Shown here piece after piece: positions 31,768 to 45,011 of a stretch of 45,011 nt of DNA. The notes under the pieces are model-generated. The model ran no database searches and was not told the DNA's origin. It was given only the letters and a program-made list of their open reading frames with translations. Each line of letters begins with the position of its first letter. Position 1 is the first letter of the stretch. Where the stretch lies: NCBI GenBank assembly GCA_902582105.1, contig CACHQT010000008.1, positions 1 to 45,011 on the forward strand, written 5' to 3'. A program made the translations under genes and the position numbers. Origin of the DNA: an uncultured Pelagibacteraceae bacterium (GTDB lineage: Bacteria > Pseudomonadota > Alphaproteobacteria > Pelagibacterales > Pelagibacteraceae).

Positions 31768-33123
31768 TTATCCCTTAACTACTTCTCTTGTATTAGCGTA
31801 ATAAGATTCAGTAAACGGTATATCTACTACAACCGCATCTACTGGTTTCCCGGGTTTCTTTGAATATTTTCTAGGCAAATGTACTTTAAATTTAGTACCC
31901 ACCTTTCCTTTAGGGAATCCGTTGTTGTTTTTTGTTCCATCATATGGAACATAGCCCATTGCTATATTCATTCCTTTTTCTGGATGATACCAAGGAGAAG
32001 TTATAAATCCCACAGGTTTACCTCCACTTGGTTTTGAAATTAACCAAAAGTCTGGAGCATACTCAGTTATCGGTTTACCACCCAGCTCCATACCAACTAA
32101 TTGAAGTTTATATGGTTTTTTTCCAGCTTTAAGTTGTGATTTCATTTTTTCTAAAGCTGCTTTACCGACGTAATTAGCTTTCTTTTTCCATTCACCTTTT
32201 CCAGATAAAGAAACTTGGTAGCCCAAATTGCATTGAAATGGGTTATGTTCATGATCTAAATCTTGTCCCCAAGATAAAATTCCAGCTTGAATTCTTCTAT
32301 GGTGAGCTGGCGCTATAACTCTAAGCTTATGTTTTTTTCCAGCTTTAAGAACAGCATTCCACATATCATCAGCATATTTAGTTGCATTTTTTAAGTATAT
32401 TTCATAACCAGCCTCACCTGAAAAACCCGACTGTGAAATTACACAATCTCTACCACCAACTTTAGCTTTAGCCAAACCATAGTAAGGCATATTATCTAGA
32501 TCAACTTGTCTACCAATCAAATCTTTCATCAATGCTTTCGATTTAGGACCTTGTATTTGAACAGGACATGTGTCTATTTCATCAATTTCACATTTGAATT
32601 TTTTATTAGCATTTACTCCTTGAAGGTAGAGTCCAATGTCACTATCAGATAAACTAAACCAAAATTCATCCTTCGCTACTCTTAATAAAATTGGATCATT
32701 TAATACTCCTCCTTTGTAATTACAAAGAATTACATATCTCGCTCTCATTGGAGAAATTTTAGTTGCGTCTCGTGTAATTACATAGTTTACAAATTTTTCT
32801 GCATCTCTTCCTTTTACTCTAATTTGTCTTTCAACTGCTACGTTCCACATTGTGACATCTTTTTTTATTGAATTGTATTCAACCATCGCACCATTTTTAC
32901 CTTTCACATATCCCCTTGGGTGGTAAATACGATTATATACTGTTGCTCTCCAGCATCCTGCTCTCATTGATAAATGCCAATAAGGTGATTTTCTTACCCT
33001 TGTTGAAATTAACATTTCAACTTTTGTTGGTCCACTTTGTCTTAAATTATAAGGCACATGTCGATCTGATTGATTTACAGATGATTCATGTTTAAGTCTC
33101 GAATAATCAAATTCTTTAGACAT
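31768..33123 (-). CDS. GcvT/DmdA-like tetrahydrofolate-dependent demethylase or aminomethyltransferase
   Basis: The GcvT fold transfers a methyl or methylene group from an amine or sulfonium to tetrahydrofolate. GcvT-like blocks include TMWNVAVERQIRVKGRDAEK, RYVILCNYKGGVLNDPIL, SQSGFSGEAGYEIYL and GILSWGQDLDHEHNPF. At about 451 residues it is longer than GcvT or SAR11 DmdA (both about 370) and nearer LigM/DesA-type demethylases, so I do not name it dmdA. The start at 33123 is preferred over 33129 because GGAG then sits 7 bases upstream. It overlaps the MetF-like gene by a few bases; with the transporter genes this suggests demethylation of an imported osmolyte. Confidence 0.7.
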   Translation of the reverse strand: MSKEFDYSRLKHESSVNQSDRHVPYNLRQSGPTKVEMLISTRVRKSPYWHLSMRAGCWRATVYNRIYHPRGYVKGKNGAMVEYNSIKKDVTMWNVAVERQIRVKGRDAEKFVNYVITRDATKISPMRARYVILCNYKGGVLNDPILLRVAKDEFWFSLSDSDIGLYLQGVNANKKFKCEIDEIDTCPVQIQGPKSKALMKDLIGRQVDLDNMPYYGLAKAKVGGRDCVISQSGFSGEAGYEIYLKNATKYADDMWNAVLKAGKKHKLRVIAPAHHRRIQAGILSWGQDLDHEHNPFQCNLGYQVSLSGKGEWKKKANYVGKAALEKMKSQLKAGKKPYKLQLVGMELGGKPITEYAPDFWLISKPSGGKPVGFITSPWYHPEKGMNIAMGYVPYDGTKNNNGFPKGKVGTKFKVHLPRKYSKKPGKPVDAVVVDIPFTESYYANTREVVKG

Positions 33124-33844
33124 ATTCATTCTCCTTCAACCACTTGTTAGTTTCCTTCAAGCCGCCGAATGTATAAATGTGAAAAAAATCGGTATGCATT
33201 TTTAATTTCCCAATTAATTCATTAGGGTCTTTAGGTTTCATCAAATCTAACGCCTTACTAAAATTAGATTTTAGAAAATTAATAGAATTTTTTGCACCTA
33301 CAATATTAGCAAATTTAATCAAGCTAGTTATTTTGAGTGGTCCAGTAATTCCAACATGAACTGGTACTGTTTGTTTAGAAATGAAATCTATGATTAGCTG
33401 TGGATCTAATAACCATTGAGTTACTATGTAGTCAGCGTAAGGCTTTTTATCTTTCATAGCTTTTTCTAAATTTGAATCGGATATATCAGGACTCCCCTCT
33501 GGATGTCCAGCGATTCCTATCTTCATCTGCTCAAAATAACCAGTCTCTAAAAGCTGTATTGAGCTATCAAATTTTCCAATTGGCTCTCTACTTCCTCCAA
33601 TAACAAGAGCCTGTTTTACACCTCCGTCTTTACATCTAGCTACATACTCTTTAAGTTGAATATCACTCTCTATGGATCTTGCAGGGAAATGAGGTATTGG
33701 ATTAAAGCCTTTTTCAACTAGTTTAATAGCTTGGTCAGCGGTATCTTTATAGTCGCCTCCTGGAAGCATTGTTACGTATACATCTTTTAAAGCAGGTAAA
33801 GTATCCAGTTCAGTTTTAGGACTTATTTCCAAAGAAAAATTCAT
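33116..33844 (-). CDS. Short methylenetetrahydrofolate reductase-like protein
   Basis: MetF-type flavoproteins reduce 5,10-methylene-THF to 5-methyl-THF, or run in reverse. The 242-residue protein has FSLEISPKTE (the position of the catalytic glutamate), DVYVTMLPGGD, PIPHFPARSI, ALVIGGSREP and IGIAGHPEGSPD, all MTHFR-like, but is about 50 residues shorter than canonical MetF. It partly overlaps the demethylase gene, so the two products may work on the same THF-bound carbon. Whether it is the housekeeping MetF or a dedicated catabolic paralogue cannot be told here. Confidence 0.75.
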   Translation of the reverse strand: MNFSLEISPKTELDTLPALKDVYVTMLPGGDYKDTADQAIKLVEKGFNPIPHFPARSIESDIQLKEYVARCKDGGVKQALVIGGSREPIGKFDSSIQLLETGYFEQMKIGIAGHPEGSPDISDSNLEKAMKDKKPYADYIVTQWLLDPQLIIDFISKQTVPVHVGITGPLKITSLIKFANIVGAKNSINFLKSNFSKALDLMKPKDPNELIGKLKMHTDFFHIYTFGGLKETNKWLKENEYV

Positions 33845-33908: not shown

Positions 33909-34793
33909 CTATCTTTTGATCCCTCTGTGTTTTTGGATTCTTCGACCGTATTCTTGAGTTATTCTGTCAAAGATTATGGCCAGCGCAACAATAGCTAATC
34001 CGTTAAATAGTCCTAATGCCAAATATTGGTTTGATATAGCTCTTAAAATAGGAACCCCTAAACCTTTAACACCAATCATAGATGCTATAACAACCATAGC
34101 TAACGCCATCATTATAGTTTGGTTTACTCCTGCAAATACTGTTGGAAGAGCTAAGGGTATTTGTACAGTTCTTAACTTTTGTAATTTTGTAGCTCCAAAT
34201 GCTTCACTTGCCTCTATTGTCTCTTTATCTACTTCTCTTATACCTAAATTAGTTAATCTTATAACTGGCGGTATAGCGTATATACAAACAGCAATTAAAC
34301 CAGGGATTTTTCCAATACCAAGTAGCATCAATATAGGAATTAAATATACAAAACTAGGAATGGTTTGCATCATATCTAATACAGGAAGCATTGATCTTTC
34401 AACTCTGTTTGATCTTGCCATTAGTACTCCTATTGGTATTCCAACAGCTATACACATAATTGTACAAACTGTTATGATTGCTACTGTTGCCATGCAATCT
34501 TTCCACATACCAAAGTATCCAATTGCCATAAAAGCTAGTATACTTCCAACTACAAGTTTCCAACTTCTTGAACCCAACCAAGCTAATCCACCTAATATTA
34601 ATAATATTATTGGCCAAGGTGTAGCTAATAGTAATTTTTCTAACCTTATTAAAAAAAATAATAGAGGATCGAAAAATGCCTCTATACCATCACCGTAAGC
34701 TCTAGAAAATTCTCTAAAAGTTTGATCAATCCCTTTTCTTAATTCCATTAGGGATTTACGCTCCATTACAGGAAATTTAGTTAAAAAATCCAT
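33909..34793 (-). CDS. proW: Glycine betaine/proline-type ABC transporter permease
   Basis: This inner-membrane subunit forms the channel of a ProU/OpuA-type osmolyte importer. The 294-residue protein has an N-terminal hydrophilic part, then about seven hydrophobic helices. The family-typical segments are VGIPIGVLMARSN, MQTIPSFVYLIPILMLLGIG, the EAA loop EASEAFGATKLQKLRTVQIP, and MVVIASMIGVKGLG. It follows the binding-protein gene after a hairpin. No ATPase gene (proV) lies next to it or anywhere in the window, which is unusual. The natural substrate could be glycine betaine, DMSP or a relative. Confidence 0.9.
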   Translation of the reverse strand: MDFLTKFPVMERKSLMELRKGIDQTFREFSRAYGDGIEAFFDPLLFFLIRLEKLLLATPWPIILLILGGLAWLGSRSWKLVVGSILAFMAIGYFGMWKDCMATVAIITVCTIMCIAVGIPIGVLMARSNRVERSMLPVLDMMQTIPSFVYLIPILMLLGIGKIPGLIAVCIYAIPPVIRLTNLGIREVDKETIEASEAFGATKLQKLRTVQIPLALPTVFAGVNQTIMMALAMVVIASMIGVKGLGVPILRAISNQYLALGLFNGLAIVALAIIFDRITQEYGRRIQKHRGIKR

Positions 34794-34853: not shown

Positions 34854-35873
34854 TTAAAGACCAGCTTTAATTTTTTTCTTAGCAGCCCCAGATACCCATT
34901 TACCCCAAACATTTTCATGTTTTGATAAAAACTCGATAGCTGCATCTGAACCTTTAGCTTGGTTTTCTGCCATGTACACAAGCATACCATTCATTACATC
35001 ACCAGGGTAAGTACGTTTTTTAACATATTTTAAAGCGTCTTTTCCTCCAGTTTTAGCAAAGTTTGCTGTAACGATAGAGTTAACTTCAGATTTAGTCCAA
35101 GCAGTTGGTTTTGGATCTGCACAATCTTGTTCTGCTTTTGTTATACAGTTATCCCAGTTATCTCTGCTGTGAAATTTCACACCAAAATCTACAGGAATTA
35201 AACCATATTTCCCAACCATTGAAGTTGGGTTCCAATAGTAACCAAACCAAGGACTTCCAGAGTCAGCTGCTTTAGATATAGTACCATCTAAACCTGCTGC
35301 AGAACCTGGATCAATTAGTACCCATCCTTTTTTTTCCATTTCAAATGCTCTGAAAAGGTTTGCGTTAGCTAACTGACATCCCCATCCAGCTGGACAACCA
35401 ACAAAAGCACCTTTAGAAGGATCTTCTTTTGAAGGGAACCATTCAGGATGTTCTAAAATTTCCATAGCTGTCATACCTTTGATTTCAGGAATTTTTTCAA
35501 CAGTTCCTGGAGTTATCCACCAACCTTCACCAAGGCCAGTAATAGGAGCTTTGTTAGCTATGATTAATCTTTTTTCTGAAACAGCTTTTTTTAAAGGTGT
35601 GTAAACAGCATTAGCCCATTGTTCAGGGTTCATGTCTGGCTCACCTTTTTCATCCATAGAAGTAAAAGTAGGCATAGTTGCACCAGGTATAAGTTCAACC
35701 TCACAACCATATCCTTTTTCTAGGATTATCTTGTCTACGTTCGCCATTAACTCGGCAGATGCCCAGTTTTGTTCAGCGATAACTAATTTTCCACAGCTAG
35801 CATTAGCAATTCCACTAAAAGAAGTGAAACCAAATAAGACTAGAGCAGAAACAATTATATTTTTTATTTTCAT
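34854..35873 (-). CDS. proX: Glycine betaine/osmolyte ABC transporter substrate-binding protein
   Basis: This periplasmic protein captures quaternary-amine or sulfonium osmolytes for import. The 339 residues begin with a signal peptide (hydrophobic to about residue 23, likely cleavage after GIANA) and continue CGKLVIAEQNWASAELMANV, typical of OpuAC/ProX type II binding proteins. Many tryptophans (NPEQWANAVY, GEGWWITPG, WFGYYWNP) fit an aromatic cage for a methylated cation. The ribosome site AAAGGGGAAATAATG is unusually strong for this genome, fitting a high-abundance product. The gene heads the leftward cluster. Confidence 0.9.
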   Translation of the reverse strand: MKIKNIIVSALVLFGFTSFSGIANASCGKLVIAEQNWASAELMANVDKIILEKGYGCEVELIPGATMPTFTSMDEKGEPDMNPEQWANAVYTPLKKAVSEKRLIIANKAPITGLGEGWWITPGTVEKIPEIKGMTAMEILEHPEWFPSKEDPSKGAFVGCPAGWGCQLANANLFRAFEMEKKGWVLIDPGSAAGLDGTISKAADSGSPWFGYYWNPTSMVGKYGLIPVDFGVKFHSRDNWDNCITKAEQDCADPKPTAWTKSEVNSIVTANFAKTGGKDALKYVKKRTYPGDVMNGMLVYMAENQAKGSDAAIEFLSKHENVWGKWVSGAAKKKIKAGL

Positions 35874-36175: not shown

Positions 36176-37222
36176 ATGAAAAAAGATTTAATCACAAGAC
36201 TTAATGAAGGACCCGTTCTTTTTGCAGAAGGATATTTGTTTGCAATGGAAAGAAGAGGATATTTATCAGCTGGTGCGTTTGTACCTGAAGTTGTTTTAGA
36301 GCATCCAGAGGTAGTTTCTCAATTACATAGAGAGTTTATAAGAGCCGGATCAGATGTAGTCCAAGCATTTACTTACTATGGACATAGAGAAAAATTGCGT
36401 TTAATTGGCAAAGAAGATCTATTAGAGCCACTACAGAAGAATGCATTACAGATTGCTAAAGATGCAAGAGATGAGTTTAAAGATCTTGATTTACTAGTTT
36501 GTGGTGATGTTGCTAATACAAACATTTATGATCCAAGTGATAAAAAAAGTCATTCAGTGTGTCAAAAAATGTATGAAGAGCAAGTGGCTTGGGCAAAAGA
36601 AGCGGGAGTAGATTTTATTGTTGCAGAAACGATAAATTGGACAGAGGAAATGAAAATTGCACTTAAGGCAATCAAAGATGAAGGTTTAATTGCTGTAACA
36701 AATTTTTCAATTAAAAAAGGTGATAAAACTAGGGAGGGCCATACTCCGGGAGACGCTTGTAAAATGATGGAAGATCTTGGTGCTGATGTAGTTGGTTTAA
36801 ATTGTTATAGAGGACCAAAAATGACAATGAAACTTTTACCTGAAATAAGAGAAAAGGTTTCATGCCATGTTGCTGCTTTACCAGTTCCCTACAGGACTAC
36901 TGAAGAGCAACCAGGTTTTTTAAATCAAACTGATCATGGTTGTGATTGTATACCTGGCGGCAATGCATTTCCTGTTGCTTTAGATAATTTGTATTGTAAC
37001 AGATTTGAAATGGCTGAGTTTGCAAAGGACTGTGAAAAAAGAAAAATAAATCTTATTGGAATTTGCTGTGGAGCTGAACCTCACCACGTTAGAGAAATGG
37101 CAGTTGCCCTAGGTAGAAAACCAATATCATATAAATATTATCCAGATATGAGTAGACATTGGCTCCATGGTAAAGATAAGTCTTTTTTAGATATAAACAC
37201 TAGTATGAGTAAAAAATATTAG
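36176..37222 (+). CDS. bhmT: Betaine-homocysteine S-methyltransferase
   Basis: This zinc enzyme moves a methyl group from glycine betaine (or a sulfonium analogue) to homocysteine, giving methionine and dimethylglycine. The 348-residue TIM-barrel protein has the zinc ligands in GLNCYRG and IGICCGAEPHHVREMA, plus GPVLFAEGYLFAMERRGYL near the N terminus and DVVQAFTYYGHREKL, all BHMT-like. A strong AGGAGGG ribosome site precedes the ATG by 3 bases and probably belongs to a SAM-responsive leader. The next gene would oxidise the product dimethylglycine. B12 is not needed for this methionine route. Confidence 0.92.
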   Translation: MKKDLITRLNEGPVLFAEGYLFAMERRGYLSAGAFVPEVVLEHPEVVSQLHREFIRAGSDVVQAFTYYGHREKLRLIGKEDLLEPLQKNALQIAKDARDEFKDLDLLVCGDVANTNIYDPSDKKSHSVCQKMYEEQVAWAKEAGVDFIVAETINWTEEMKIALKAIKDEGLIAVTNFSIKKGDKTREGHTPGDACKMMEDLGADVVGLNCYRGPKMTMKLLPEIREKVSCHVAALPVPYRTTEEQPGFLNQTDHGCDCIPGGNAFPVALDNLYCNRFEMAEFAKDCEKRKINLIGICCGAEPHHVREMAVALGRKPISYKYYPDMSRHWLHGKDKSFLDINTSMSKKY

Positions 37223-37232
37223 TTCTTAAATT

Positions 37233-39638
37233 ATGGAAAGTAATGCAAAAGTAGTAATTGTTGGAGGTGGTGTAGTTGGATGTTCAATTCTATACCATCT
37301 CTCTAAATTTGGGTTAAAAGATTGTATTCTTTTAGAGAGGAATGAATTAACTTCAGGATCCTCTTGGCATGCAGCTGGAAATGTTCATGTAATCTCATCC
37401 GATCCTAATATTTCGAGAATGATGGCCTATACAATTGGTCTTTATAAAGAAATAGAGAAAGAGTCGGGTCATTCTTGTGGATTTAAACCTAGTGGCGGAT
37501 TTTATTTGGCTTCAAATGACGTTTGGGCCGAGTATCTCAAAAGAGAGAGATCTAAGGCTAGGTACATGGGTTTAGATCAAGAATTTATATCGCTTGATGA
37601 GGTAAAAAAGAAAAATCCACTGATTGATCCTTCCAGATATTTGCTTGCATTGTGGGATCCAATTGACGGAGAAGTAGATCCCTCTGGCGTAACTTACGCT
37701 TTTGCAAAAGCTGCAAAAGTTCATGGAGGAAAATATTATACACACACTGTTGTTAAGGACACCAAACAAAAAAAAGACGGATCCTGGGATGTTGTAACTG
37801 ACAAAGGTAATGTAAATGCTGAAATTGTAATTAATGCTGGAGGTCTTTGGGCAAGAGAAGTTGGAAAACTTGCAGGATTAGATTTACCTGTTCAACCAAT
37901 GGAACATCATTATTTAATTACAGAAGCAATCCCAGAAATAGAAGCAATGGGTGATCAAAGATTGCCGATAGGAACAGATTTTGAAGGAAATATTTATTTT
38001 AGACAAGAAGGAAAAGGAATGTTGCTTGGAACGTATGAACAAAAATCAACTCCATGGAAAGTAGGAGGAACCCCAATGAATTTTGGACATGAACTTTTAG
38101 AGCCAAAACTTGATAATATTCAAGATAGATTAGCTATTGGTTTTGAAAGAATGCCTGCTCTAGAAAAAGCTGGTATTAAAAACATTGTGAATGGCCCATT
38201 TACTTTTGGTCCAGATGGAAGTCCTCTGATTGGACCAGTTCCAGGAATGAAAAATTATTGGGTTGCAGTAGGTGTGATGGCTGGTTTTTGCCAAGGAGGT
38301 GGCGTTGGCAAATGTATTGCGGAGTGGATTATTGATGGCGAACCTTCAATAGATGTTTGGGCAATGGATGTTGCAAGATTTGGAGATTATGCATCACCAC
38401 AGTACGGAACAATAAAATCATCTGAAAATTATGAAAGAAGATTTATAATGACTTTTCCAAACGAAACTCTACCCAAGGGTAGAAAACAAAAAACAACTGC
38501 TCTTTATGATCGTTTTATAAATCAAGGAGCTGTTATGGGAGATAGTTTTGGTTTAGAAAATGTTTTGTGGTTTGCGAAAAGCAAAGAAGATGCATACGAA
38601 GAACCAACCATTAAAAGATCTAGATCACATAATTATGTTTCAAAAGAAGTAATAAATGTCAGAGAAAACGTAGGTATTACAGAGGTCGCAAACTTCTCAA
38701 AACATGAATTTAGAGGATCAGATGCTAGAAAATTTTTAGATTATGTTATGGCCGGAAGAATACCTAAACCAGGAAGAATTTCACTTAATCCAATGTTAAC
38801 CCAAAAAGGAAAACTCTATGGAGATTTAACAGTTGCATGCATAGATGAGAATGAATTCATGATTTTTGGATCAGGTGCAGCACAAGAAATGCATAGACGC
38901 TGGTTTGAGAGTCATATAGGTAAATTTAATTTAAGTTACAAAAATCGGTCTGATGATTTTCATGGTCTTAGTATTTCAGGTCCAAAATCAAGAGATTTAC
39001 TTCAAAAAATTGTTAGAGAAGATGTATCGAATAGTAAATTAAAATTTAGAGACTCAAGAAGAATGTATGTAGCTGGGGTACCAGCTATAATTAATAGATT
39101 ATCTTTTACCGGAGAGTTAGGTTATGAAATTTATGTCGCGCCACACTATCAGATTAAATTGTATGAAGAACTTATGGAGGCAGGAAAGGAATTTAATATT
39201 AAACCATTTGGAGCAAGAGCTTTAATGTCTATGAGGTTAGAAAAAAATTGGGGAGCTTGGACCCTCGATTACAGACCAGATTTCACCCCAAAAGAGGTAG
39301 GTTTAGATGTATTTATTAACTGGGATAAAGATTTTATTGGTAAAAATTCTGCCAAAAAAGACAAAAGTAAAAACAAAATTACCCCATTAATAGTTGAAAC
39401 TAATGAGATCGATGTAACGTATAATGAAGCTGTTATGAAAGGAGATAAAAGCATTGGGTATGTAACATCTGGAGGTTTTGCTCACTTCGTAAATAAAAGT
39501 GTTGCATTCTCTTACCTAGACACAAATGAATTAAATTCTGGAAAAGGTATTCAAGTTGAAATTAATGGTGATATGTTCAATTGTTCAATTATCAAAGAAC
39601 CGCTCTATGATCCAAGTGGTCAAAAAATGAGAAGTTAA
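37233..39638 (+). CDS. Dimethylglycine/sarcosine dehydrogenase-like flavoprotein with GcvT domain
   Basis: The enzyme oxidatively removes N-methyl groups and passes the carbon to tetrahydrofolate as methylene-THF. The 801-residue protein has a FAD-binding domain (VVIVGGGVVGCSILYHLSKFG at residues 7-27), then SGSSWHAAGNVHVI, whose WHAAG histidine is the flavin-attachment site in DMGDH and sarcosine dehydrogenase. A folate-binding GcvT half covers roughly residues 400-800 (GLSISGPKSRDLL, LSFTGELGYEIYVAPHYQ, KNWGAWTLDYRPDFTPKEVG). Placed 10 bases after bhmT, it would take the dimethylglycine made there. DMGDH versus sarcosine dehydrogenase is not decidable from sequence alone. Confidence 0.87.
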   Translation: MESNAKVVIVGGGVVGCSILYHLSKFGLKDCILLERNELTSGSSWHAAGNVHVISSDPNISRMMAYTIGLYKEIEKESGHSCGFKPSGGFYLASNDVWAEYLKRERSKARYMGLDQEFISLDEVKKKNPLIDPSRYLLALWDPIDGEVDPSGVTYAFAKAAKVHGGKYYTHTVVKDTKQKKDGSWDVVTDKGNVNAEIVINAGGLWAREVGKLAGLDLPVQPMEHHYLITEAIPEIEAMGDQRLPIGTDFEGNIYFRQEGKGMLLGTYEQKSTPWKVGGTPMNFGHELLEPKLDNIQDRLAIGFERMPALEKAGIKNIVNGPFTFGPDGSPLIGPVPGMKNYWVAVGVMAGFCQGGGVGKCIAEWIIDGEPSIDVWAMDVARFGDYASPQYGTIKSSENYERRFIMTFPNETLPKGRKQKTTALYDRFINQGAVMGDSFGLENVLWFAKSKEDAYEEPTIKRSRSHNYVSKEVINVRENVGITEVANFSKHEFRGSDARKFLDYVMAGRIPKPGRISLNPMLTQKGKLYGDLTVACIDENEFMIFGSGAAQEMHRRWFESHIGKFNLSYKNRSDDFHGLSISGPKSRDLLQKIVREDVSNSKLKFRDSRRMYVAGVPAIINRLSFTGELGYEIYVAPHYQIKLYEELMEAGKEFNIKPFGARALMSMRLEKNWGAWTLDYRPDFTPKEVGLDVFINWDKDFIGKNSAKKDKSKNKITPLIVETNEIDVTYNEAVMKGDKSIGYVTSGGFAHFVNKSVAFSYLDTNELNSGKGIQVEINGDMFNCSIIKEPLYDPSGQKMRS

Positions 39639-39742: not shown

Positions 39743-40372
39743 ATGGCACAGAAAGACGTAGGTAACAAAGTACCAATTTATAAATTAAAAAAAACTGACG
39801 AGGTCATGAAATATTATGATGAGTGGGGTGAAGGAAATAAATATGACAAAGATATGGTTGATTGGAATTACACTGGTCCTAAGGAGACTGCCGAAGTTTT
39901 TATTAAACACGAAAAGAATAAAGATGCAAAAATTTATGATGCTGGATGTGGAACGGGATTAGTTGGTGTTGAATTAAAGAAGTATGGTTTTTCAAATTTT
40001 TATGGAGCAGACCTTTCTCAAAAGCTTTTAGATTTAGTTCCAAAAGAACTTTATAAAAAATTAGATAAAGTCGATTTAAACAAACCCATAGATGAGCAGG
40101 ATGACGCATATGATGCTGTGATGTGCGTTGGTACATTTACTTTTGGCCATGTAAAACCTCCTGCCTTAGACGAATTTATAAGAATCACAAAAAATAAAGG
40201 TCTTATTTGTGTTACTATCAACGAAGGTATTCACGAGGAATATGGTTTTGATAAAAAAATTGAAGAGTTAAATAATCAGAATAAGTGGAAGAAAATTGAA
40301 TTTTTTAAATCAAATTATATAGCTAGCAAGGATGTTAATGCTTGGTTAGGTCTTTATGAGGTAATCAAATAA
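39743..40372 (+). CDS. Class I SAM-dependent methyltransferase, substrate unknown
   Basis: The 209-residue protein has a Rossmann-type methyltransferase core: motif I IYDAGCGTGLVGVELKKYG near residue 65, the acidic ribose-binding end GADLSQKLLDL, a motif II/III region YDAVMCVGTFTFGHVKP, and ITKNKGLICVTINEG. It resembles small-molecule methyltransferases of the Williams-Beuren-like group; no rRNA or protein substrate motif is seen. Its stop overlaps the Rieske oxygenase ATG (TAATG), so the two are tightly coupled. Context suggests a methylated osmolyte or a demethylation intermediate as substrate, which is inference. Confidence 0.8.
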   Translation: MAQKDVGNKVPIYKLKKTDEVMKYYDEWGEGNKYDKDMVDWNYTGPKETAEVFIKHEKNKDAKIYDAGCGTGLVGVELKKYGFSNFYGADLSQKLLDLVPKELYKKLDKVDLNKPIDEQDDAYDAVMCVGTFTFGHVKPPALDEFIRITKNKGLICVTINEGIHEEYGFDKKIEELNNQNKWKKIEFFKSNYIASKDVNAWLGLYEVIK

Positions 40373-41547
40373 TGTCAGATATATACAACATAATAGAAAA
40401 GAAAAAATTAGATGTTGTAAATAATCCAATAGAAAAATCTCATGGACTGCCAAACGAATGTTATACAAGTGAAAAATACACACAACTTGAGAGAAAAAAA
40501 TTATTTGAAGACAAATGGGTGGTTATAGGTGTCGCAAGTTCTTTACCAAATATAGGAGACGCAAAGCCATTTGACCTTCTAGGTATTCCAATAATAATTT
40601 TGAGAGATAAAAAAAATAAAATAAGAGTTTTTCATAATGTGTGTAGTCACAGAGGCTATAAAATCTTACAAAAAGACTGCAAGATTAAAAATGTCATAAG
40701 ATGTCCCTATCATTCTTGGTCATATGATATGACCGGTAAGCTTGTTGCAACTCCACATTTGGGAGGCATGAATAAGCATGAATGTAAAAAGTTTGATAAG
40801 TCCAAAAGCAATCTAAAAGAAATTAAATCTTATATTTGGCTTGATATGATTTTTATCAATATAAGTGGAAATGAAATCTCATTTGATAAATATATAAAAC
40901 CATTAAGCGATAGGTGGGAAAAGTTTTGGCCAGAGAAAGATAGAGAATTAATGGTTTATTCGAATGACTTTGGATATTTTAATTTAAATGCAAAGTGTAA
41001 TTGGAAATTTGCAATAGAAAACTATTGTGAAAGTTATCATTTGCCTTGGGTTCATCCAGGGCTAAATTCTTACTCAAAAATAAGTGATCATTATCATATA
41101 CAAGGATTACCCAATCGTTTTGCTGGACAAGGAACAAAAGTTTACAATCCTAAGCTAAAAGGAAAAGAAAAGTTTCCATGTTTTCCAAATTGGCCTAAAG
41201 ATAAAGAAAATATTGCAGAATATGTTGCTTTATTTCCCAATGTCATGCTTGGAATTCATAAAGATCATTTTTATGCGTATTGGTTAGAGCCCGTAGATCA
41301 TAAATTTACCAAAGAACACATGGAAATTTATTATGTAGGAGAAAAAGCTGCAAATTCAAATAAATTTAAAAATTTAAGAAAGCAAAACCATAAATTATGG
41401 AAGAGCGTTCAGTCGGAGGATGTTAATATAATAGAGGGTATGCAACAAGGAAGGAACTCACCATCTTACAACGGCGGAAATTTTTCACCTGTTATGGATA
41501 ATCCAACACATCACTTCCATAAATGGGTAGCAACTAATATAGTTTAA
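40372..41547 (+). CDS. Rieske non-heme iron oxygenase alpha subunit, betaine-demethylase-like
   Basis: The 391-residue protein has the Rieske [2Fe-2S] ligands in CSHRGYK and RCPYHSWSYD (C-x-H-x17-C-x2-H) and the catalytic mononuclear iron site in ENYCESYHLPWVHPGL (E..H and H). A later SEDVNIIEG supplies the likely acidic ligand. Architecture and motifs resemble choline monooxygenase, GbcA and carnitine oxygenases, which hydroxylate N-methyl or adjacent carbons of quaternary amines. No reductase gene lies in the window, so electrons would come from an unlinked partner. It sits one base from a methyltransferase start overlap and 2 bases from the M24 gene. Confidence 0.85.
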   Translation: MSDIYNIIEKKKLDVVNNPIEKSHGLPNECYTSEKYTQLERKKLFEDKWVVIGVASSLPNIGDAKPFDLLGIPIIILRDKKNKIRVFHNVCSHRGYKILQKDCKIKNVIRCPYHSWSYDMTGKLVATPHLGGMNKHECKKFDKSKSNLKEIKSYIWLDMIFINISGNEISFDKYIKPLSDRWEKFWPEKDRELMVYSNDFGYFNLNAKCNWKFAIENYCESYHLPWVHPGLNSYSKISDHYHIQGLPNRFAGQGTKVYNPKLKGKEKFPCFPNWPKDKENIAEYVALFPNVMLGIHKDHFYAYWLEPVDHKFTKEHMEIYYVGEKAANSNKFKNLRKQNHKLWKSVQSEDVNIIEGMQQGRNSPSYNGGNFSPVMDNPTHHFHKWVATNIV

Positions 41548-41549
41548 TT

Positions 41550-42785
41550 ATGAAATTTAATAGAAAAATTGTACCTAACACAAAATCAAAAGTAAATTTT
41601 ATTACCAAAAAAAGGTTACGTGAGGACGAAATTAATTTTGATAAATTAAGATCTTACAGGTTAGATAGAGTAAAAAAAGAATTAGTAAAAAATAATTTAG
41701 AAGCTTGCATCTTGTTCGATCCAGTAAACATTAGGTACGCTTTAGATACTGTGAACATGAGTGTTTACAATATGCATAATTTAACGAGATATTGTTTTGT
41801 ACCAGTTGATGGACCAACAATCTTATATGAATATTTCAATTGTGAGATTTTATCTAAGCATTTGGATTTAATAGATGAAATTAGACCATCAATAACATGG
41901 GATTATTTCAGTAACGGAGACCAAGCAAGTTCTCAACTTAAAAAGTGGGTAAATGAAATAAAAGATTTATCAAAAAATTATTTCAAAAATAAAAAAGTAG
42001 CAATTGATGTTATCAATGGACCTGCTGTAACCGCTTTAAATAAAGCTGGAATTGAAGTTGTTGATGCAAAATTAATTTTAGAACAAGCAAGAGTTATTAA
42101 ATCACCAGAGGAATTAAAATGCATGAAAGCAGCTTTAGAGGTTGCGGAAATTGGTGTTGCAAAGATGCGAGAAGAACTTAAAGCAGGTATGACTGAGGAT
42201 GAGCTTTGGTCCATACTTCATAAAACAAATATTGAACATGGAGGAGAGTGGATTGAATGTAGAATACTTTCGTCAGGTGAAAGAACAAATCCATGGATGC
42301 AAGAAAGTAGCAATAAAGTAATGCAAACTGGTGAAATGGTAGCTTTCGATACTGATATGGTAGGCCCATACGGATATTGTGCAGATATTTCGAGAGCTTA
42401 TGTGGTTGGTCATAAGTTTAATGATAAGCAAAAAAAATTATATTCAATGGCTACAGATCAAATTGATCATAACGCAAGATTAATAAAACCTGGAATGTCT
42501 TTTAAAGAATTTGTTTCAAAGTCTTGGGTTTTACCTGAAGATTATTATGGTAATCGTTATTCATGTATGGTTCATGGAATTGGCCTTTGTGATGAATGGC
42601 CTCAAATTAAATATCCAACTGACGGTGGGGAACAAGGTGGTAGTTTCGAAAAAAATATGACAATAACTTTAGAAAGTTATATTGGGAAAGTGGGCGGCAA
42701 AGAAGGTGTTAAATTAGAACAACAGTATCTCGTGGGACAAAATGGACTAGAGCTTATGTCTCATCATCCTTTAGAAAAAATATAA
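41550..42785 (+). CDS. M24-fold protein with DddP (DMSP lyase)-like active site
   Basis: M24 proteins are usually Xaa-Pro peptidases; DddP is a family member that cleaves DMSP to dimethylsulfide and acrylate. This 411-residue protein matches DddP strikingly: ILFDPVNIRYALDTVNM, HGGEWIECRILSSGERTNPW, FDTDMVGPYGYCADISR and YSCMVHGIGLCDEWPQIKYP. The metal set is Asp-x-Asp plus Asp ten residues on (DTD...ADIS), His in MVHGIG, Glu in TLESYIG, and Glu in GVKLEQQ, 15 residues later. A Tyr 5 before and an Asp 6 after that His match the catalytic residues reported for DddP, as I remember the numbering. Ordinary peptidases have D-x-G here. The true substrate is untested. The stop overlaps the next ATG. 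Confidence 0.72.
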   Translation: MKFNRKIVPNTKSKVNFITKKRLREDEINFDKLRSYRLDRVKKELVKNNLEACILFDPVNIRYALDTVNMSVYNMHNLTRYCFVPVDGPTILYEYFNCEILSKHLDLIDEIRPSITWDYFSNGDQASSQLKKWVNEIKDLSKNYFKNKKVAIDVINGPAVTALNKAGIEVVDAKLILEQARVIKSPEELKCMKAALEVAEIGVAKMREELKAGMTEDELWSILHKTNIEHGGEWIECRILSSGERTNPWMQESSNKVMQTGEMVAFDTDMVGPYGYCADISRAYVVGHKFNDKQKKLYSMATDQIDHNARLIKPGMSFKEFVSKSWVLPEDYYGNRYSCMVHGIGLCDEWPQIKYPTDGGEQGGSFEKNMTITLESYIGKVGGKEGVKLEQQYLVGQNGLELMSHHPLEKI

Positions 42786-43195
42786 TGAAAATTATTTTAA
42801 TAATGGGACTGCCAGGTGCAGGGAAAACAACTCTTGCGGAGACTTTGGCACCAATGGTTAATGCTAAAAGACTTAATGCAGATGAAGTTAGAAAAGCTGC
42901 AAACGATTGGGATTTTTCTCCAGAGGGCAGAACAAGACAAGCAAAGAGAATGGCAGAATTTGCTCTGAAATTAAAAAATGAAGGTAATTATGTAGTTGCT
43001 GATTTTATATGTCCCACCCCAGAAGCGAGAAAATTATTTCCTGCAGATTATATAGTTTGGGTAGATACAATTAAAGAAGGAAGATTTGAAGATACCAATC
43101 AAATGTTTATAAAGCCTGAAAAATATGACTTTCACGTCACTTCTCAAGATGCACAAACTTGGGCACCTAAAATATATGAAGATCTAAAAAAATAA
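42785..43195 (+). CDS. Small APS-kinase-like P-loop kinase
   Basis: The 136-residue protein has a Walker A loop LIMGLPGAGKTTLAETL at residues 4-20, a DEVRKAANDWDFSPEGR segment corresponding to the substrate-binding region of adenylylsulfate kinase, and VVADFICPTPEARKLF followed by VWVDTIKEGRFEDTN. It is about two thirds the usual CysC length and lacks a strict DGDN motif. SAR11 relatives are known to lack assimilatory sulfate reduction, so a standard CysC role is doubtful. Coupling to the DddP-like gene suggests phosphorylation of some product of the island, which is inference. Confidence 0.7.
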   Translation: MKIILIMGLPGAGKTTLAETLAPMVNAKRLNADEVRKAANDWDFSPEGRTRQAKRMAEFALKLKNEGNYVVADFICPTPEARKLFPADYIVWVDTIKEGRFEDTNQMFIKPEKYDFHVTSQDAQTWAPKIYEDLKK

Positions 43196-43215: not shown

Positions 43216-45011
43216 ATGAACTTTTTAAAAAAATTTATCCTTATTTTATTATTTTTATTTCCTATTTCTAATTCCTTTGGAGAAGCTACCCTTACACATG
43301 TACAAACAGTAGCATTTGATGATGGTGATCAAAACCAAAATAATATAATAGCTGGTATTGAGTTTAACAAAGATGGAACAAAACTTTTTACAAGTTCTGC
43401 TAACAAAACTAATCCTGGCCTAATTATGGAATTTAATCTAAGTACACCTTACGATATAAGTTCAAGAACTTATGCAGGTGATGGTGAGAGATGCACAATG
43501 ACTGAAGTTCTAAAAACACCATATGATTTAGAATTAAACCATGATGGGACAAAATTATTTGTTGCAACAAGAGATGCAACTAATGGTGCAGATAAAGATA
43601 AACTTTTCAGATATGATTTAACTACACCTTATGATATTTCTACTTGTGCGTTTGCACAACAAACCACAAATCTCGATTCTTCAGATAATTTGAATGACAG
43701 TGCGGCTGGTAATTTTTCATTGGTAGGAGACGGATACTCAGGACATAGAAAAATTAGGCTTCAAGGTTTTGAATTTAACAACGATGGCACGAAATTATTT
43801 TTGAGTTGGTTTGGCCAAAACGATTATTCTGCTAAATTATTAGAATACACTCTTTCAACTCCATACGACATAACCTCACTTCAACTTGTTACAACAGCAG
43901 GAATTGAAATGGGAAGTGGCACCGATACCAATGTAGGTAACTCAGCAGGAATTAGGTTTGGTGCAAATGGAAAAAGAATTTTTATTATTAGTCACGATAG
44001 TAGCCCGGGTATCAGTCAGATTTCTCTTACAAATGCATTCGATACTTCATCATTTGTTTTGGATGGTAAATTTGACTTTGCGTCTCCATCAAATACACAA
44101 CCTAGAGGAGTTGCGTTCAACTCAAGTGGTTTAAAAATATACATTGGAAGTGGTCCTGGTCATGAAAGCATAGATCAGATATTCGAATATAATTTAGTTT
44201 GTCCATTTACTATTTTTGCTGGAACATGTCCTTCGATTACCAAAAATAGTGATAGAACTGGCATGGCAGAAGCCCAAGTAGAACTAGCAAAAAGAACAAT
44301 TAATTTTTCAACTAACTCAGCCTTAAATAGATTGAAGTGGATTAGAAGAAATAAAGATAAACAAAATTTATCAAACCAGAATATCAAACTAAACTTTTCA
44401 AATAGTTTACTATCATCTTTAAAAGCTGTACCAATTTCATCTATAAAAAAAATATCTGCGACTAAAAATAAAAACGACTCAAATAAAAACTATTTTTATT
44501 GGAGTGAAGGTAGTATTTCTCTTGGCAGAGTAGGAGATACTAGTATTGCATCAACAAAAAAAATTAATACAAACGCCTTAACCTTTGGTCTTGATAAATT
44601 TACAGATGATTATGGTCTAGAAGGGTTTGCCTTTAGATTTGGTAGTGATGATGTTGATGTTGGTAGCGCTGGCAGCAATTTAGATTCTAATACCTATAAC
44701 ATTACGTATTATAGTACTTCGCCTATTAAAGATGACACTAAATACTTAGATAAGATTTTTGGAATAGGAAAAATAAGATCAGATATAACTACTGTTCTTG
44801 ATGGCAAAAGCTTAAACGCAGATAGAACTGGAAATCAAATATATGGTACATTTAAAATTAAAGATGAATATAAAAGGGATAAATTAACCTTTATTCCATC
44901 TGGACAATTTGATTTTGGGCACACAATATTAAGAGGATATCAAGAAGCAGGTACAGGAGCTATTGAAGTTGAGGATCAACATGTTCGAACAAAAAATTTA
45001 AGAGCAACAAT
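43216..45011 (+). CDS. Exported repeat protein with autotransporter-like beta-barrel, 3' end outside the window
   Basis: The frame stays open from the ATG at 43216 to the window end (598 codons visible). It begins with a signal peptide (MNFLKKFILILLFLFPISNSFG). Residues about 45-335 hold four to five repeats built on FNxDGTKLF followed by a YxLSTPYDIS tail (for example at residues 50, 107, 187, with weaker copies near 247 and 301), a pattern of marine beta-propeller-like proteins. From about residue 427 YFYWSEGSISLGRVGD, TNALTFGLDKF and alternating beta sequence resemble the barrel of an autotransporter. It is probably a surface protein; its ligand is unknown. Confidence 0.7.
   Translation, partial: MNFLKKFILILLFLFPISNSFGEATLTHVQTVAFDDGDQNQNNIIAGIEFNKDGTKLFTSSANKTNPGLIMEFNLSTPYDISSRTYAGDGERCTMTEVLKTPYDLELNHDGTKLFVATRDATNGADKDKLFRYDLTTPYDISTCAFAQQTTNLDSSDNLNDSAAGNFSLVGDGYSGHRKIRLQGFEFNNDGTKLFLSWFGQNDYSAKLLEYTLSTPYDITSLQLVTTAGIEMGSGTDTNVGNSAGIRFGANGKRIFIISHDSSPGISQISLTNAFDTSSFVLDGKFDFASPSNTQPRGVAFNSSGLKIYIGSGPGHESIDQIFEYNLVCPFTIFAGTCPSITKNSDRTGMAEAQVELAKRTINFSTNSALNRLKWIRRNKDKQNLSNQNIKLNFSNSLLSSLKAVPISSIKKISATKNKNDSNKNYFYWSEGSISLGRVGDTSIASTKKINTNALTFGLDKFTDDYGLEGFAFRFGSDDVDVGSAGSNLDSNTYNITYYSTSPIKDDTKYLDKIFGIGKIRSDITTVLDGKSLNADRTGNQIYGTFKIKDEYKRDKLTFIPSGQFDFGHTILRGYQEAGTGAIEVEDQHVRTKNLRAT

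Follow-up and report, generated by a model that had tools for sequence, protein, structure and literature searches.

Four genes near one end of a 45,011-nucleotide stretch of DNA from an uncultured Pelagibacteraceae bacterium (contig CACHQT010000008.1; the whole stretch is referred to here as the window) are packed so closely as to raise the question of whether their products act together. They encode a class I S-adenosylmethionine (SAM)-dependent methyltransferase (MT), the alpha subunit of a Rieske non-heme iron oxygenase (RHO), a dimetal enzyme of the M24 peptidase family that is homologous to the dimethylsulfoniopropionate (DMSP) lyase DddP (M24), and a P-loop kinase (KIN). The original prediction treated the four as one module that follows betaine methyl-catabolism genes. 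Our analysis points, with moderate confidence, to an accessory island for the catabolism of imported methylated onium osmolytes (glycine betaine, DMSP, or a closely related compound). The reactions and substrates proposed below are predictions from the sequences, the gene neighborhoods, and the co-occurrence of the genes.

Gene content and distribution of the island

Among 51 genomes sampled within the genus, M24 and a second betaine-homocysteine methyltransferase-like gene (BHMT-2) occur in the identical 17 genomes, and all 17 also carry RHO, MT, and KIN. A second dimethylglycine dehydrogenase gene (DMGDH-2), sought in 21 genomes, was found in 9 (matches of at least 76%), exactly the 9 that have M24. 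RHO is present in 36 of the 51 genomes, MT in 32, KIN in 43, and an aminomethyltransferase gene (AMT) in 47. Because the genomes are related, statistics on this co-occurrence overstate independence. The unit that emerges is not the four genes first proposed: M24 goes with BHMT-2 (17/51) and DMGDH-2 (9/9), RHO with the metF/AMT pair (34/36), and KIN with a nucleotidyltransferase gene designated c8. The betaine methyl-catabolism genes reported to precede the four were recovered as a BHMT-like gene at 36176-37222 and a DMGDH-like gene at 37233-39638. The genes of the island and its immediate surroundings in the window are as follows.

39743..40372, + strand: MT, class I SAM-dependent methyltransferase, 209 amino acids (Methyltransf_11, 39 bits)
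40372..41547, + strand: RHO, Rieske non-heme iron oxygenase alpha subunit, 391 amino acids (Rieske, 67 bits; Ring_hydroxyl_A, 144 bits)
41550..42785, + strand: M24, DddP-superfamily dimetal enzyme of a clade of its own, 411 amino acids (Peptidase_M24, 109 bits)
42785..43195, + strand: KIN, P-loop kinase with weak similarity to adenosine 5'-phosphosulfate (APS) kinase, 136 amino acids (APS_kinase, 42 bits, residues 3-83 only)
37233..39638, + strand: DMGDH-2, second dimethylglycine dehydrogenase (nearest structure presumably human DMGDH, 597 bits)
36176..37222, + strand: BHMT-2, second betaine-homocysteine methyltransferase-like protein (nearest structure human BHMT, 160 bits)
34854..35873, - strand: DmpX/OpuAC-like substrate-binding protein (7 of 8 RnDmpX DMSP-pocket residues)
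33909..34793, - strand: ABC permease of the same transporter, OpuAB/DmpW-like (by position and translated sequence)
33116..33844, - strand: methylenetetrahydrofolate reductase (MTHFR)-like MetF of the SAR11_1264 type, putatively for methyl-tetrahydrofolate (THF) oxidation (weak Pfam match, 21 bits; cut-off, 24)
31768..33129, - strand: DmdA-like AMT of the SAR11_1265 type (in 47/51 genus genomes)

The open reading frames (ORFs) reproduced the positions and spacing of the four genes: all have ATG starts and overlap by 1 base, with a single gap of 2 bases between RHO and M24. DMGDH-2 and MT are separated by 104 bases in the window; 53 of the named loci have them as neighbors, and in 45 of these the two overlap by about 1 base. 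An Rfam scan of the window for riboswitches gave no match above the threshold (two chance-level matches fell in the island, with E values of 0.6 to 1), and the signal from scans for promoters and terminators did not rise above that of shuffled sequences. The genome to which the window belongs comprises 952,813 bases and is 76% complete.

Gene order was compared across a set of 80 named loci, the best of 298 RHO relatives, all from Pelagibacteraceae (SAR11) and biased to close kin; the orders disregard any gene other than the ten that were searched for. Of the 80 loci, 78 contain M24, and the two without it (L109 and L127) both end at contig ends. The order MT-RHO-M24-KIN was found in 44 loci and varies in the others. 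M24 comes next after RHO in 57 loci, at a distance of no more than 30 bases in 43 and of about 440 to 460 in 14, and KIN comes next after M24 in 67. Nineteen full loci read, from the metF side, RHO-BHMT-DMGDH-MT-M24-KIN; others read BHMT-DMGDH-MT-RHO-M24-KIN, and in a further group BHMT-DMGDH is reversed. Gene content is conserved and gene order shuffled, and the arrangement recurs beyond chance. The SAR11 origin, the methylated-osmolyte setting, and the conservation of the neighborhood were all supported.

The island sits beside a near-universal metF/AMT pair. In a set of 40 larger loci, 36 hold RHO, and 34 of these also contain a MetF-like gene, which adjoins RHO in 22 and is otherwise separated from it by the island or by other genes. 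In the fetched loci of other SAR11 genera that have M24, RHO-M24 adjoins metF/AMT (e.g., L048-L050, L062-L065, and L072; L066 is cut). Four genomes of the samples, G026, G035, G078, and G226, are presumably HTCC1062, HTCC7211, HIMB5, and HIMB59, respectively. In HTCC1062, RHO lies between the MetF/AMT pair and KIN, and M24 and BHMT-2 are absent there. Across 197 genomes of the family, RHO was detected in 61 at an E value of 0.001, of which 56 are close orthologues with at least 57% identity (one a fragment). Close orthologues of M24 were found in 35 (two of them fragments), and 34 of these genomes have RHO, the exception being a fragment in G126. KIN and MT were found in 97 and 90 family genomes, respectively, weak matches included.

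Transporter and proposed route

The best solved-structure match of the binding protein is 7yle (179 bits), which we take to be RnDmpX with DMSP; the available text of PMC10030565 names 7YLE once, defines the RnDmpX pocket residues, and gives a Kd of 100 nM for HTCC7211 DmpX. Seven of the eight pocket residues (W35, T64, W84, E113, W152, Y200, and W202) are kept in the window, and the same seven are kept in 66/66 rows of window and loci, some loci of one genome being counted twice. The eighth, A153, is Gly in the window and Asn or Ala in some loci. The pattern is partly specific: distant substrate-binding proteins (SBPs) in L195 and L226 keep six of the eight residues, and choX and a Rhizobium betaine SBP keep two. 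The window shows no third transporter gene in the interval spanned by the SBP, permease, and metF ORFs, and a DmpX-like gene is absent from the fetched HTCC7211 stretch (L034). Compared with the DMSP transporter DmpXWV, the transporter of the island keeps seven pocket residues, but A153 is changed and a third gene is missing from that interval; DMSP is a candidate ligand.

The paired betaine genes appear distinct from those already described. BHMT-2 is 50% identical to the G026 copy, and DMGDH-2 is at most 38% identical to other SAR11 copies and 37% identical to the best G026 copy. The known SAR11 glycine betaine route uses BHMT SAR11_1173 and DMGDH SAR11_1253, as described in the accessible part of PMC3160333. 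The enzyme kinds are the same, but the island copies appear to be paralogues, with the best G026 copies taken as those two genes. The same part of that paper lists SAR11_1265 as an aminomethyltransferase of unknown substrate, and by its description the HTCC1062 MetF/AMT pair is taken as SAR11_1264/1265.

A route through the island can be proposed. Substrate would enter through the DmpX/Opu-type ABC transporter. RHO would hydroxylate a methyl group or neighboring carbon of the onium group, leading to formaldehyde loss or C-N bond cleavage, and BHMT-2 would provide a second way of taking the first methyl group, onto homocysteine. DMGDH-2 would then oxidize an N-methyl group and load tetrahydrofolate, and MetF and AMT would pass methyl-THF to one-carbon oxidation. 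M24, as a dimetal enzyme, may act by lysis or hydrolysis; its substrate would be an onium compound that is either related or imported alongside, which could be DMSP but might equally be another betaine. MT would have a looser role, and KIN may be a passenger tied to c8. The presence of BHMT-2, DMGDH-2, and RHO suggests an N-methyl betaine, whereas the transporter, the homology of M24, and ddd-like neighbors of RHO relatives in Pseudomonas and Oceanisphaera suggest DMSP; an island for onium osmolytes covers both pointers. Our best guess for the substrate of RHO, BHMT-2, and DMGDH-2 is glycine betaine.

The M24 protein and DMSP cleavage

The best solved-structure matches of M24 are 4rzy (285 bits) and 4b28 (275 bits). 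The Protein Data Bank titles of both say peptidase M24; we take them to be RlDddP and RdDddP, respectively. The DddP residues compared, as given in PMC4108388, are the metal ligands D295, D297, D307, H371, E406, and E421, together with Tyr366 and Asp377; SAR11 M24 keeps all eight. These residues could be read as marking a true DddP-type DMSP lyase, so that the island would join DMSP cleavage to glycine betaine demethylation (by RHO, BHMT-2, and DMGDH-2) through a shared transporter. Besides the residues and the DmpX-like transporter, three neighborhoods speak for this alternative. On an Oceanisphaera plasmid, a RHO relative lies about 3 kb from a named dddP, across the plasmid origin and with a BCCT gene between them. 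In Pseudomonas MPC6, a RHO relative lies about 13 to 20 kb from a CoA transferase-BCCT-Fe-ADH-MMSDH set that resembles a ddd cluster. An SBP56 gene, presumably of the methanethiol oxidase family, is found downstream in some relatives.

The conserved residues do not decide the matter. Of 59 M24 proteins collected, 57 are DddP-type; the metal ligands are kept in 57/57, the Tyr in 57/57, and Asp377 in 53/57, including proteins encoded in MttB/DMGDH clusters. Because they are kept in nearly all DddP-type proteins, these residues cannot tell a lyase from a relative and were rejected as proof of lyase function. M24 also scored 356.7 bits against the DddP equivalog model NF043017, which has a cut-off of 600; of 10 M24 relatives scanned, only the plasmid-encoded Oceanisphaera DddP passed (626.5 bits). 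In the M24 tree, which included one named DddP, the SAR11 proteins join the f31 lineage (support of 100/100), outside the clade of that protein (L224). According to PMC5395565, which names residue types rather than numbers, the sulfur in DddP is held by a Trp and a Tyr, and a Phe takes the place of a peptidase His. Numbered by alignment to the DddP structure, the Trp and Phe would be W95 and F278; in 20 SAR11 M24 proteins, W95 is replaced by Tyr (18) or Phe (2) and F278 by Met (20/20). Among the DddP-type proteins, 36 of 57 retain the Trp, and the MttB-linked ones belong to these 36. M24 thus resembles DddP in its nearest structures, metal ligands, Tyr366, and Asp377 and differs in model score, clade, and both pocket positions. 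A DMSP lyase label for SAR11 M24 appears unsafe, and a true lyase in the island is rather unlikely; the earlier description of M24 as DddP-like holds as homology, but the conserved residues do not establish lyase activity.

The context of DddP-type M24 genes outside this island was examined in 40 hand-picked loci, mostly from the top of the list, of which 2 with another M24 type were removed, and in 20 control stretches from the same contigs. RHO, MttB, DMGDH, or BHMT genes were nearby in 14 of the 38 loci compared with 2 of the 20 controls (Fisher P = 0.035), and 24 of the 38 have none of these genes nearby. In Rhizobium leguminosarum, M24 lies with a RHO of another subfamily and a GbcB-like reductase (322 bits; cut-off, 500), beside a 4-hydroxyproline epimerase and a betaine transporter. 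In Parasedimentitalea, it lies with a DMGDH-sized flavin adenine dinucleotide (FAD) enzyme, a trimethylamine methyltransferase family protein, and sarcosine oxidase. G494 has M24 with an MttB-like gene (309 bits; cut-off, 525) and DMGDH; G453 has RHO, an aldehyde dehydrogenase (ALDH), a DapA-like gene, an FAD enzyme, BHMT, one unknown ORF, and then M24. In HIMB59, MT adjoins M24, with two tandem BHMT-2-like genes beside them (L183:9917-12042). Alphaproteobacterial genomes with a close RHO (SAR11 excluded) have a DddP-type M24 in 39 of 41 cases compared with 77 of 384 overall, with kinship and genome size uncorrected; in those genomes, 6 pairs of RHO and DddP-type M24 were observed within 20 kb, with 0.8 expected. 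Both comparisons speak for the onium-catabolic island.

A broader proposal, which we put forward only tentatively, is that the DddP superfamily acts mainly as a partner in the catabolism of quaternary amine and onium osmolytes, alongside DMGDH-like enzymes and demethylases of the Rieske or the corrinoid (MttB) type, and that DMSP lysis, for which the Km is poor, is a side or derived activity. The SAR11 M24, with its altered pocket, would then catalyze an undescribed C-N or C-S cleavage, and RHO an oxygen-dependent onium demethylation. SAR11 bacteria are highly abundant in surface seawater, where they cycle much of the methylated nitrogen and sulfur. One survey, in its available text, counts DddP-like sequences as DMSP lyases at a hidden Markov model threshold of 1E-30 and includes Pelagibacterales among the holders of DddP (PMC8520302). 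If SAR11 M24 is not a lyase, part of the modeled dimethyl sulfide potential would be misassigned. The high Km of DddP for DMSP (14 to 17 mM in the available part of PMC5395565) is an old puzzle that the context of the island may explain.

The Rieske oxygenase, the kinase, and other cargo

RHO has the Rieske CxH...CxxH motif and the catalytic His/His region. Its nearest solved structure (by phmmer, as for MT, M24, and KIN) is the carnitine monooxygenase CntA (122 bits), and its best NCBIfam model is GbcA (NF058607; 122 bits; cut-off, 670). The Glu of its NYCESYH motif aligns with that of NYMECYH in CntA, and the motif, in altered form, is common to relatives in Acinetobacter, Pseudomonas, Oceanisphaera, Cupriavidus, Phaeobacter, Leisingera, and G453. 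The 14 SAR11 members form one group (support of 100/99) in a tree built from 26 RHO proteins. RHO thus resembles CntA and GbcA as its nearest matches and in the Glu of NYxExYH, but it scores far below the GbcA cut-off, and no CntB/GbcB-type reductase was found for it in the genomes searched; on these two grounds, a strict GbcAB-type system was rejected. CntA cleaves a C-N bond to give an aldehyde, and an order of RHO followed by ALDH would fit such a reaction; the SAR11-family locus L066 has the order RHO-ALDH-M24. As a gene of 36 of the 51 genus genomes that lies near metF in the loci examined, RHO is an overlooked oxygenase and a candidate second route.

Several observations weigh against an onium-catabolic island. 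Nineteen genus genomes have RHO without M24 or BHMT-2, and the two SAR11 genomes with RHO in the Alphaproteobacterial sample (G003 and G017) lack M24, making the inclusive count 39/43. Ergothioneine-type EgtB/EgtD genes occupy the place of M24 and BHMT-2 in two fetched SAR11 loci. The reductase family PF00175 was found in 0 of 13 genomes searched, and a GbcB-like query matched only a ferredoxin domain, in 12 of the 51 genus genomes, all with RHO. Outside SAR11, RHO is followed by ALDH in the six plasmid records examined, and 20 Alphaproteobacterial RHO loci are mixed (soxB-like genes in 4, M24 in 4, ALDH in 3, and DMGDH in 0).

In an improbable alternative, RHO belongs to a pathway for an N-methylated ring compound (e.g., homarine), as its relatives may, and SAR11 would retain only the first step. 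Relatives belong to clusters of the order RHO-ALDH-FAD-FAD-EutQ that have LysR and, in most cases, BCCT genes nearby, the soxB-like genes would suit such a pathway, and a role of Mgd in homarine catabolism is attributed to a 2026 paper in the available text (PMC13390433). The match to homarine genes is a guess, and the FAD-FAD-EutQ run was not seen in fetched SAR11 loci.

Marginally less probable still, the genes may do no more than lie in one variable region of the chromosome, without acting jointly. The stretch from metF to c8 is indeed variable and holds other cargo (e.g., EgtB/EgtD, SET, and HalD-like genes). Against this stand the identical distribution of M24 and BHMT-2, the content kept despite shuffled order, and the recurrence of such genes close to M24 in other bacteria.

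A single linear pathway through the four genes (oxygenase, lyase, methyl transfer, and phosphoryl transfer) is very improbable and was rejected for all four together because KIN tracks c8: the tight spacing, the shared order in 44 loci, and the presence of KIN in all 36 RHO-bearing genus genomes favor it, but order and membership vary, M24 has closer ties to BHMT-2 and DMGDH-2 than to MT or KIN, and KIN occurs in 7 genus genomes without RHO. A limited literature search found no paper joining an M24 protein and a Rieske oxygenase, in agreement with the earlier statement that no such joint pathway is described.

KIN and c8, an HxGH nucleotidyltransferase, are fused in one ORF in L256 and L257 (G001 and G006), and c8 adjoins KIN in 23 of 25 fetched KIN-holding loci. 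KIN probably belongs with c8 rather than with the pathway and is treated here as a neighbor of the island; a shared site may explain its co-occurrence with RHO. The best solved-structure match of KIN is a probable APS kinase (32 bits), and the NCBIfam model apsK gave 33.5 bits (cut-off, 138.7) over residues 3-83, not the full length. The KIN-c8 fusion is perhaps a kinase-nucleotidyltransferase. The nearest solved structure of MT is METTL27, and the role of MT in the onium-catabolic island may be looser; MT occurs in 32/51 genus genomes.

Other genes were seen around RHO. EgtB and EgtD lie between metF and MT-RHO-KIN at L040:5944-8123 and L061:10198-12377 (489 and 351 bits, respectively, in the members scanned, above the cut-off), and a lone EgtD-type gene lies beside RHO at L051:8020-8925. 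In other SAR11 genera (L050, L052, L063-L065, and L072), RHO or RHO-M24 is followed by varying HalD-like, class II aldolase, L-carnitine-dehydrogenase-like (348 bits; cut-off, 414), and F420-hydrogenase-beta-like genes. In G035, SBP56 (678 bits) and a 2Fe-2S ferredoxin gene lie downstream of the island (L034:1053-2788); the ferredoxin matched by the GbcB-like query adjoins SBP56 in that genome. G035 also has a second Rieske oxygenase, 36% identical (L067:6054-11920), with a glutamine-synthetase-like gene (identified by eye), another Rieske-like gene, and a D-2-hydroxyacid-dehydrogenase-type gene; the M382 plasmid (L233) carries a comparable set that includes an M24. In the window, KIN is followed by a large ORF with a hydrophobic start (43216-45009) that runs off the window end and is present in 17 of the 80 named loci.

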